In this document: positions 2,092-3,578 of the stretch, piece by piece
Layout of the letters: every line of letters begins with the position of its first letter
How positions within the stretch are numbered: the first letter of the stretch is position 1
Source of the DNA: Thermoflavifilum thermophilum
GTDB lineage: Bacteria; Bacteroidota; Bacteroidia; Chitinophagales; Chitinophagaceae
Reading direction: 5' to 3'
Assembly (NCBI RefSeq): GCF_900116565.1
Contig: NZ_FPCJ01000001.1
Location: 434,001 to 498,000, forward strand
DNA length: 64,000 nt
The notes under the pieces: generated by a model
Seen by the model: the letters and a program-made list of their open reading frames with translations, nothing else
Databases searched by the model: none
What the model was told of the DNA's origin: nothing
Program-made: the position numbers and the translations under genes

Positions 2092-2844
2092 ATGGAAAAT
2101 CTCTCTTTTCAACTGGAAGCATGCGTGAATTGTTTTAATGCCGCCCGGATAGCTGAGCAGGCCGGAGCAGACCGAATTGAACTTTGCGAAAACCTGCATG
2201 CCGGTGGCACTACTCCTTCGGCCGGCACAATCAAACAAGTGAAAGCACATCTTCAGATTCCCATGTATGTGATGATACGGCCTCGCGGCGGAGATTTTTG
2301 CTATACTGAAGAAGAGTTTGCCATTATGCAAACAGATATTAAACTCTGTAAAAACTTAGGTTGTGAGGGCGTGGTCTTTGGAATATTAAAACAAAATGGT
2401 GAAATCGATATTGACAGATGCAGGAAGTTGGTGGAACTGGCCTGGCCCATGGAAACAACCTTTCACAGAGTATTTGACCTGTGCCCGGATCCCCACCGGG
2501 CAGTTGAAGAACTCATCGATGCTGGATTCCAATACATACTTACATCCGGACAGCAGGTTAAGGCTGTTGATGGAATAGATTTGTTGGCACAACTGGACGA
2601 AATGGCTCGTGGAAGAATACAACTCATTGCAGCCGGAGGCATCCGTTATCCTCAATTGCAGGAGTTGCTTACCCGTACCCATCTACGCTACTTCCATAGC
2701 GGAGCCTCTGTTCCCATGCCAACAGCGTTTCCCGAATCTGCGCCCTTTGCATTATCGGATATCTTGATCAATGGCGAAGAAATCAAACGAATGAAAACGT
2801 TGCTGAAAGAGTACACCCAAAAACAAACTCCATCATCGGAGTAA
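2092..2844 (+). CDS. cutC: CutC family protein (copper homeostasis)
   Basis: This 250-residue TIM-barrel protein carries the CutC signatures: LEACVNCFNAARIAEQAGADRIELCENL near the N-terminus, the GGTTPS loop, MIRPRGGDF, GCEGVVFGIL, TFHRVFD and the late AAGGIRYPQL segment. Length is standard. CutC was originally linked to copper tolerance in E. coli, but its biochemical activity remains unsettled, so the name describes the family and not a proven function. It stands alone. The next feature is a tRNA gene on the opposite strand, starting seven bases after the stop. Confidence 0.9.
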   Translation: MENLSFQLEACVNCFNAARIAEQAGADRIELCENLHAGGTTPSAGTIKQVKAHLQIPMYVMIRPRGGDFCYTEEEFAIMQTDIKLCKNLGCEGVVFGILKQNGEIDIDRCRKLVELAWPMETTFHRVFDLCPDPHRAVEELIDAGFQYILTSGQQVKAVDGIDLLAQLDEMARGRIQLIAAGGIRYPQLQELLTRTHLRYFHSGASVPMPTAFPESAPFALSDILINGEEIKRMKTLLKEYTQKQTPSSE

Positions 2845-2851
2845 AAAACTG

Positions 2852-2925
2852 TGATCCGGATGCGATTCGAACGCATGACCCACAGCTTAGAAGGCTGTTG
2901 CTCTATCCAGCTGAGCTACCGGACC
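2852..2925 (-). tRNA. tRNA-Arg (anticodon TCT)
   Basis: The 74-base gene folds as a full cloverleaf. The acceptor arms GGTCCGG and CCGGATC pair with one G-U, the D-stem is GCTC/GAGC, the anticodon stem is ACAGC/GCTGT with loop CTTCTAA (anticodon TCT, decoding AGA), and the T-arm is ATGCG-TTCGAAT-CGCAT. The discriminator is A and CCA is not encoded. Its first 23 bases also encode the last residues and stop of the upstream GIY-YIG gene on the same strand. A damaged second copy of its 5' half lies at 3184-3247. Confidence 0.95.
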
Positions 2926-3111
2926 ATTTCCGTTTTATCCATTCCTTACCCACTCCACTCTTCAAAAACTTTTCCCGCTCACGGGCTGCCGACCGCGTAT
3001 CATACCCCTCCACCCAAATTAACTCCCACGGCCTATACGCCCGCGTCGACCGAGTCTGACCCCGATTATGCTCCCCCAAACGACGTCCTACATCCTTGCT
3101 CATGCCTACAT
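2882..3111. repeat. Direct repeat copy A (GIY-YIG body plus tRNA 5' half)
   Basis: These 230 bases recur at 3184-3433 with only four substitutions (all transitions) plus one 20-base insertion in copy B. The unit runs from the tRNA anticodon arm through the tRNA 5' end and into the GIY-YIG gene as far as its codon for Met27. The three differences inside the nuclease coding part are all synonymous (Leu TTA/TTG, Ala GCG/GCA, His CAT/CAC). Confidence 0.97.
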
Positions 3112-3178
3112 AAAACCGACCATCCTTCCTGCTCCTGAGTACATATACCTGATATCGGCTTCTCTCTTCTCTTTCCAT
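2903..3178 (-). CDS. GIY-YIG nuclease domain protein, 3' end overlapping tRNA-Arg
   Basis: This is a small 91-residue single-domain GIY-YIG protein of the UPF0213/YhbQ type. The motif appears as VYVL (residues 11-14) and FYVGMS (22-27), followed by the arginine of the DVGRRLGEHN helix, the WELIWVEGY strand and the glutamate of AAREREKFLKSG. The family cuts DNA, but many of these stand-alone small proteins have no assigned role. The last residues, WSGSSAG, and the TAG stop are encoded by the 5' end of tRNA-Arg, so nuclease and tRNA overlap by 23 bases. The ATG at 3178 lies just beyond the half-tRNA remnant. A second copy lacking the first 26 residues follows upstream. Confidence 0.85.
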   Translation of the reverse strand: MEREERSRYQVYVLRSRKDGRFYVGMSKDVGRRLGEHNRGQTRSTRAYRPWELIWVEGYDTRSAAREREKFLKSGVGKEWIKRKWSGSSAG

Positions 3179-3183
3179 AACCT

Positions 3184-3247
3184 ACAGCTTAAAAGGCTGT
3201 TGCTCCCTGCCTGCCGGCAGGCAGGTATCCAGCTGAGCTACCGGACC
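3184..3247 (-). pseudogene. tRNA 5'-half remnant with palindrome insertion
   Basis: The remnant starts GGTCCGGTAGCTCAGCTGGATA exactly like tRNA-Arg, is interrupted by a 20-base palindrome, and resumes GAGCAACAGCC-TTTTAA-GCTGT. The anticodon triplet is TTT (Lys-type) where the intact gene has TCT. After the anticodon stem the sequence passes directly into the ATG of the GIY-YIG gene, so the T-arm and 3' acceptor strand are missing. It cannot give a normal tRNA. Confidence 0.9.
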
Positions 3248-3433
3248 ATTTCCGTTTTATCCATTCCTTACCCACTCCACTCTTCAAAAACTTTTCCCGC
3301 TCACGGGCTGCCGACCGCGTATCATACCCCTCCACCCAAATCAACTCCCACGGCCTATATGCCCGCGTCGACCGAGTCTGACCCCGATTGTGCTCCCCCA
3401 AACGACGTCCTACATCCTTGCTCATGCCTACAT
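3189..3433 (-). pseudogene. GIY-YIG nuclease, N-terminally truncated copy
   Basis: The frame encodes the same residues as copy A from Met27 (MSKDVGRRLGEHN) to WSGSSAG, with identical protein sequence. The first 26 residues, including both halves of the GIY-YIG signature, are missing because the repeat stops at 3433. The inserted palindrome destroys the usual TAG stop and adds the tail YLPAGRQGATAF. Without the catalytic motif it should be inactive. Confidence 0.85.
3206..3225. repeat. Perfect 20-bp palindrome inserted in the tRNA remnant
   Basis: CCTGCCTGCCGGCAGGCAGG equals its own reverse complement. Comparison with copy A shows a clean insertion: the flanks TTGCTC and TATCCAG are contiguous in copy A, with no target-site duplication. 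It sits at the boundary of the D-loop and the D-stem 3' strand. When translated, such palindromes give LPAGRQ/LPACRQAG-like strings, which I associate with dispersed short palindromic repeats in Bacteroidota; that association is from memory. Confidence 0.9.
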
Positions 3434-3448
3434 GCTACCTGAAAACTT

Positions 3449-3489
3449 ATTTCAATCAGCAGGGTTTCCTACTTGATTATGATTGAAAT
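3449..3489. repeat. Inverted repeat upstream of uxuA
   Basis: ATTTCAATCA (3449-3458) and TGATTGAAAT (3480-3489) are exact reverse complements separated by 21 bases. The pair lies between the end of repeat copy B and uxuA, about 90 bases before the uxuA start. No T-tract follows on either strand, so a terminator is unlikely. A regulator site or a transcript hairpin is possible. Confidence 0.6.
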
Positions 3490-3578
3490 GACGCTGCAAA
3501 CTACACAATTTTGCTGAACTCCGGAACTCGGAATTCGGCTTTGATGTGTATTTTGCAGGTCTCAAACGTCTTGTTGCC

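Follow-up and report, generated by a model that had tools for sequence, protein, structure and literature searches.

Small GIY-YIG nuclease genes beside bacterial tRNA genes: a probable family of homing-like elements that rebuild the RNA genes they enter

Why should the gene for a small GIY-YIG nuclease end inside a tRNA gene, and why should most of that nuclease gene, together with part of the tRNA, be present twice in direct orientation? The question is raised by a locus near the start of the window that we analysed, a stretch of 64 000 nucleotides from the genome of Thermoflavifilum thermophilum (G000). A first-pass annotation had described a direct repeat here and had suggested that a small nuclease gene which travels with tRNA halves could be a mobile cassette directed at tRNAs. 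The features of the locus, in window positions, are given below.

2092–2844, plus strand: the neighbouring gene cutC (Pfam CutC), the marker for the orthologous locus in congeners
2851–2925, minus strand: intact tRNA-Arg(tct) gene (ARAGORN; whole-genome tRNA list)
2874–2903, minus strand: 30-nt continuation of the repeat within the intact tRNA, partner of 3176–3205 (repeat search)
2903–3178, minus strand: intact GIY-YIG nuclease ORF, 91 aa (ORF list; Pfam PF01541, E 4e-17)
2904–3111, minus strand: inner copy of the 208-nt direct repeat (repeat search)
3176–3247, minus strand: broken tRNA-Arg(tct) copy, made up of tRNA positions 1–22 (3247–3226), a palindrome and tRNA positions 23–52 (3205–3176) (repeat and sequence comparison)
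3206–3225, no strand: 20-nt perfect palindrome CCTGCCTGCCGGCAGGCAGG, between tRNA positions 22 and 23 (D-loop) of the broken copy (sequence comparison)
3226–3433, minus strand: outer copy of the unit, a nuclease gene without its 5' end (GIY and YIG motifs both missing) that continues into the broken tRNA (repeat search)
3496–3503, minus strand: promoter-like box TAGTTTGC (congener sequence comparison; function inferred from position and conservation)

Along the minus strand the order is promoter-like box, truncated nuclease, broken tRNA, intact nuclease and intact tRNA, the last being the sole gene with a tct anticodon among the 41 tRNA genes of this genome. The 230-nt direct repeat described in the first-pass annotation was recovered in its place. 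Its four substitutions, all transitions, are exactly those at 2890, 3020, 3038 and 3068 within 2882–3111, and the three in the nuclease part are synonymous, the ORF translations being identical across the shared part. The extent and structure of the unit had to be revised: the repeat ends not at 2882 but at 2874, 8 nt further on, and the two copies are not colinear because the 20-nt palindrome at 3206–3225, previously overlooked, is inserted into the second tRNA copy. The repeat consists of a block of 208 nt with 3/208 differences between copies (2904–3111 and 3226–3433), an identity of 99% that is far above chance expectation, and a block of 30 nt with 3/30 differences (2874–2903 and 3176–3205). 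As the repeat extends to 2874, the start codon of the intact nuclease (3178–3176) falls within the broken tRNA; its TAG stop codon lies in the D-arm of the intact tRNA, with an overlap of about 23 nt. In the outer copy the palindrome splits the equivalent stop codon, so that the outer reading frame continues into the palindrome. This copy is missing its first ∼22 codons, and without the GIY and YIG motifs that they include it is, judged from its sequence, very unlikely to be catalytically active.

The locus is best explained as two tandem units, now decayed, of a small, selfish mobile element that encodes one protein only, a single-domain GIY-YIG nuclease. The reading of an isolated tRNA-half cassette thereby gives way to that of an array within a larger element family, and for that family the account that we consider probable is of a selfish, homing-like element that restores whichever RNA gene it has invaded and then amplifies in tandem, cleavage and homing being the steps that we infer.

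The orthologous site was found, by means of cutC, in five species of the genus (G000–G004). In G002, cutC and the tRNA are present and the nuclease and broken tRNA copy are both absent, so this site is empty. The other four are filled: G003 and G004 have tRNA, nuclease and palindrome-interrupted tRNA, and in G000 and G001 a truncated nuclease and then the interrupted tRNA precede nuclease and tRNA. The promoter-like box lies directly upstream of the tRNA in G002–G004 and upstream of the whole array in G000, where the tRNA thus appears to be transcribed last. Between this box and the truncated nuclease of G000 lie some 60 nt (3434–3495) with a 10-bp inverted repeat (ATTTCAATCA..TGATTGAAAT), partly present in G001. 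A two-copy structure long fixed and showing ordinary divergence would have spoken against mobility. The two copies in the sister species G001 are identical (0/208 differences), yet differ from those of G000 at 24–25/208 positions, which indicates that copies are homogenised within each genome rather than diverging in the ordinary way. The homogenised block stops at the palindrome in both G000 and G001, in line with the palindrome interrupting homology, and the 30 nt past it are more divergent between copies.

Relatives of the nuclease are widespread. A profile built from 21 of them (E ≤ 1e-8) matched 160 of the 247 Bacteroidota genomes on which it was run, about two-thirds of the species sampled, often in many copies and with many tandem runs of hits. 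A second profile, of six closer relatives, provided 80 further loci from named genomes; there are 200 loci in total, and 175 have at least 250 nt of flank on both sides. A tRNA gene lies within 250 nt at 157/175 of these full-flank loci, a proportion that describes the family and not all GIY-YIG proteins, since the phylum sample comprises the best-scoring matches of a profile to which tRNA-adjacent members were the main contributors. The chance expectation, from the tRNA density of G000, is about 0.6%. The tRNA is on the strand of the nuclease in every case (157/157), and 15 isotypes are represented. A few other GIY-YIG matches in these genomes (L001, L033, L035–L037) have no tRNA in their loci. 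The suggestion in the first-pass annotation of a tRNA-linked mobile nuclease cassette is thus upheld, by this association as well as by the empty orthologous site and the protein tree considered below, and its reservation that homologues might rarely lie by tRNA genes falls away.

The named-genome loci include MAGs assigned to Patescibacteria, Omnitrophota, Nitrospirota and Acidiferrales; for the tRNA-adjacent members in such MAGs (L188, L196, L218, L219, L220, L221, L222, L232, L236 and L238), transfer and binning contamination are both possible. In the phage and plasmid collections searched the family is almost absent, and carriage by phages or plasmids was rejected on this ground.

We then asked what the nuclease phylogeny follows. 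With 81 alignment columns behind the tree of 200 proteins, individual forks carry little weight, and the counts of label changes are taken as the result. tRNA isotype changes 35 times on this tree, compared with a mean of 107 (minimum 100) when labels are shuffled; for the phylum set, over the same rows, isotype changes 26 times and host family 51 times (65 and 69, respectively, when shuffled). The phylogeny therefore tracks tRNA isotype better than host family, as expected for a gene that moves with its tRNA specificity. Relatives with 55–64% identity in Chitinophagaceae, Saprospiraceae, Owenweeksia and others also lie at the Arg(tct) tRNA and overlap it in the same way.

These observations bear on the simplest alternative, in which a resident tRNA-adjacent nuclease that is not itself mobile was doubled by replication slippage or unequal crossing-over. 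Direct tandem copies, homogenisation between them and the constant period of arrays elsewhere in the family would all follow from such an event, which accounts for the array, but not for the tRNA association. Neither the empty site in G002, nor the distant relatives with the same tRNA and overlap in other families, nor a tree sorted by isotype rather than host, nor the members inside RNase P RNA and recombinase genes described below, would be anticipated. We consider plain duplication improbable and, given the empty site and the isotype-sorted tree, reject it as a full account.

Two layouts recur in the family. In the first, which is commoner in the phylum sample, the intact tRNA is followed by the nuclease and then by a broken 3' part of the tRNA; in the second, a broken 5' part comes first, followed by the nuclease and the intact tRNA. 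The earlier proposal that it is the 5' half that is copied holds for the window locus, which has the second layout, but not as a rule. Whichever layout is present, what the broken copy has lost is generally the part next to the nuclease, its outer end being retained. Entry of a segment with the nuclease gene into a tRNA gene, which it then rebuilt, would produce this pattern. Broken copies or other tRNA fragments are present at 101 loci of the phylum set and at 72 of the 80 named loci.

The attachment sites of genomic islands typically show tRNA fragments as direct repeats, and the repeats described here might be regarded as the scar of an integrase-type event in a tRNA gene. The unit, however, is only about 300 bp long, with one substantial gene, the nuclease, and no recombinase gene; the tRNA fragments hold internal palindromes, and 5' and 3' parts both occur. 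An integration scar is thus extremely improbable for this locus, and as the general case it is refuted by the content of the units.

The broken tRNA copies are usually interrupted by an insertion, and these insertions have a marked tendency to form hairpins. Of 104 distinct insertions, 79 are more stably folded than 95% of shuffled versions of themselves, as against 29 of 312 control segments. They lie in the D, anticodon/variable or T region, according to isotype. Arg copies have the 20-mer at tRNA position 21–26, and several Leu, Asn and Phe copies have it at 14–22; Asp copies have TCCCG..CGGGA around 50–60, Met copies TCCGCC..GGCGGA around 34–48, and Ser copies a 22-nt double hairpin around 68–73. 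Compensatory changes are seen in the Ser/Pro double hairpins: their covariation score is 0.273, which 0/500 shuffles reach, as against 0.045 when shuffled and 0.07 or less in slid controls. The identical 20-mer is found near tRNA position 21–22 in many other genomes, across phyla, and all genomes that have it also have the nuclease family (20/20 against a background of 160/247, p 1e-4, and in a second set 8/8 against 23/41, p 0.005, both p-values ignoring relatedness).

Palindromes are also present in G000 away from the nuclease, which counts against the homing model. Eight exact copies of the 20-mer lie within 32 kb (G000:C2:1200428–1232703; L008–L014), and those inspected are within intergenic repeats of the type CGTCATTCCGAGC..GGAATC, far from nuclease genes. 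At L005 (G000:C2:62342–62361) the same palindrome lies ∼7 nt upstream of tRNA-Pro(tgg), with promoter-like sequence on its other side and without a nuclease; it is possibly a relic.

Tandem arrays are not peculiar to T. thermophilum. At least two units are present at 38 of the 200 loci, and up to eight are found; the periods are near-constant, mostly 300–450 nt, and neighbouring units are mostly 90–100% identical, a few pairs not being comparable in register. What is multiplied is the nuclease and the broken tRNA copy, the intact tRNA usually being single. This is relevant to the possibility that the nuclease serves its host by guarding or amplifying tRNA genes, for example against tRNA-cutting defences, toxins or tRNA-integrating elements. 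The gene is under strong purifying selection (dN 0.048 and dS 0.64 between G000 and G001, dN/dS about 0.07), and a precedent is provided by phage T6, whose survival of Septu is aided by SegB-driven tRNA amplification (PMC13096335). Active selfish homing genes are likewise under purifying selection, however, and arrays that add nucleases and broken copies rather than intact tRNAs are not what such a role would call for. Patchy presence, truncated copies and insertions into RNase P RNA and recombinase genes, too, look selfish, and we judge a host-serving role very improbable.

No tRNA lies near the remaining 18 of the 175 full-flank loci, and an alternative target was identified for only some of these, which counts against a homing model. 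Among the tRNA-less loci, one protein clade uses other targets. At L245/L246 (G202, G093) and L282 (G104) the nuclease ORF is inside the RNase P RNA, in the P3 helix, flanked by inverted repeats that are perfect over about 20 bp and differ in sequence between G093/G202 and G104. Empty sites are represented by the congeners G066, G077 and G139, whose RNase P RNA has a P3 of the ordinary, short kind. In the predicted fold P3 is kept and the ORF occupies its loop; as modelled, the RNA would apparently be a usable ribozyme that carries a protein gene. Further members, at L128 and L135, occupy the 5' end of a dTDP-glucose dehydratase-like gene, which is intact downstream and has a second copy of its first ∼36 nt upstream; those at L124 and L140 interrupt tyrosine-recombinase genes and have inverted-repeat ends of 16–17 bp (gene names judged from translations in both cases).

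An intron with its own homing endonuclease was also considered. Rfam models revealed group I introns at none of the tRNA-less loci examined except beside L201, where a match (2367–2633) lies just downstream of a family member without a tRNA call. With this one exception among the Rfam results, and with the intact tRNA of the window locus uninterrupted, a group I intron was rejected.

The nuclease itself consists of little more than the catalytic module. The intact GIY-YIG domain spans residues 9–74 of the 91, Y12, Y23, G25, R33, H37 and E69 are invariant in the alignment of 21 relatives, and the structure model has a pLDDT of 88. Domain search and model were also inspected for a separate DNA-binding region, and gave no second domain; with nothing for DNA binding past the GIY-YIG module, sequence-specific homing is less obvious, a further point against the homing model. 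The sequence matches 1zg2 (E 2e-17), SLX1 (E 3e-8) and, weakly, I-TevI (E 0.007), and the top Foldseek matches for the model were SLX1 chains and 1zg2. By sequence and modelled fold the protein is thus nearest to the UPF0213/SLX1 branch, for which structure-specific cleavage would be the prediction.

The affinity with SLX1 suggests another reading, in which the palindromes (a short form) and the ORF enclosed by inverted repeats (a long form) are forms of one element; it would enter the loops of hairpins, both within RNA genes and at other sites, by means of an SLX1-like nuclease that acts on hairpin or cruciform DNA. In accordance with this, UPF0213 and the structure-specific SLX1 are the closest relatives of known structure; the ORF lies between inverted repeats, perfect ones in the case of RNase P RNA and perfect or nearly so in that of recombinase genes; and the same 20-mer recurs near tRNA position 21–22 across phyla, every genome that has it also having the nuclease family. 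Yet the ORF is not itself enclosed by a palindrome in most tRNA loci, many nuclease-bearing genomes have other palindromes in place of this 20-mer, the significance of the co-occurrence takes no account of relatedness, and some palindromes sit within intergenic repeats distant from nuclease genes. We regard such a hairpin-entering element as possible, if rather unlikely. The bolder claim, of a new class of bacterial mobile element in which an SLX1-like nuclease gene and matching palindromes insert into tRNA and RNase P RNA loops, rebuilding the tRNA or leaving a foldable ribozyme, and from which the palindromes scattered through the genomes of Bacteroidota and some Patescibacteria are derived, strikes us as unlikely.

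We therefore return to the selfish homing-like element as the preferred reading, and envisage its cycle as follows. The nuclease would break a particular tRNA gene, and repair from an element-bearing copy would insert the nuclease gene along with tRNA sequence sufficient to make the tRNA whole again on one side. On the other side the end of the old tRNA, displaced and interrupted by the palindrome, would remain as the broken copy. The two tRNA pieces could act as homology arms and so permit entry into the same tRNA gene of unrelated genomes. Further breakage, or unequal exchange between repeats, may then amplify units of nuclease and broken tRNA, with conversion keeping the units alike. The palindrome in the broken copy probably stabilizes the insertion, by breaking up a deletion-prone direct repeat, by destroying the cut site in that copy, or by both; alternatively, the hairpin might be the element's own mobile short form, and its role is the weakest step of the account. 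The element would persist because the essential tRNA that it enters is rebuilt. A difficulty is that the intact tRNA-Arg(tct) of G000 is identical to the tRNA of the empty genome G002; an enzyme that cuts intact tRNA genes should therefore cut its own neighbour, which counts against homing; SegB raises the same question. Within the genus the same identity rules out the idea that the restored tRNA half brings foreign, cut-resistant bases.

If the model is correct, tRNA genes of the chromosome, often essential and present only once, have homing elements of their own, which survive because they restore the tRNA that they break; SegB-driven amplification of tRNA genes in phages would then have a counterpart in bacteria. 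It would also offer a possible origin for the puzzling dispersed palindromes of these genomes, and provide natural RNase P RNAs with a protein gene in a loop. The model lends itself to direct testing, the nuclease, its substrate and the empty sites all being small and well delimited. In the open-access literature on GIY-YIG proteins and either Bacteroidota tRNA genes or palindromes (subscription journals and preprints lying outside this search), the SegB paper alone was relevant; so far as that literature goes, this chromosomal family of selfish elements seems to be undescribed.

Several known systems share part of this behaviour. The small GIY-YIG proteins of UPF0213/COG2827 (solved as 1zg2 and 1ywl) and SLX1 are the closest matches in sequence and fold, and we know of no mobility or tRNA association for either. 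Endonuclease genes of fungal mitochondria, such as that in Allomyces atp6, replace the 3' end of their target gene and leave the displaced end behind. These resemble the present family in that a mobile endonuclease gene restores its target by bringing a replacement end, and differ from it in that the targets are protein-coding genes of organelles, with no tRNA, palindromes or bacterial chromosomes involved. RAYTs are HUH (Y1) transposases, and a Pfam search of the present nuclease gave GIY-YIG only, with no Y1/HUH transposase. The likeness to REP/RAYT systems and other dispersed bacterial palindromes is that short palindromes scattered through the genome are apparently tied to one nuclease-type gene family (PMC3733652); here, in contrast, that gene is of the GIY-YIG type and the palindromes mark broken tRNA copies.

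The nearest parallel in genetic organization is SegB, a free-standing GIY-YIG homing endonuclease of T-even phages, for which PMC13096335 cites Brok-Volchanskaya et al. (2008) as the original description. In T6, SegB cuts within tRNA genes, and its nuclease activity drives the tandem amplification of units that comprise tRNA and truncated segB (PMC13096335). A GIY-YIG gene among tRNA genes, tandem units with a truncated nuclease and a tRNA association not limited to one isotype are common to both systems (PMC13096335). Like SegB, the window nuclease has the catalytic domain and lies beside a presumed target, and the family's targets have element-free alleles (tRNA-Arg, RNase P RNA); a separate DNA-binding region is the SegB-like feature that it lacks. 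SegB is phage-borne, whereas the present family is chromosomal and consists of a bare domain of 85–91 aa that is nearer to UPF0213/SLX1. The second tRNA copy broken by a palindrome, and the rebuilding of the target that we propose, belong to the present family and are not described for SegB in the available text of PMC13096335.
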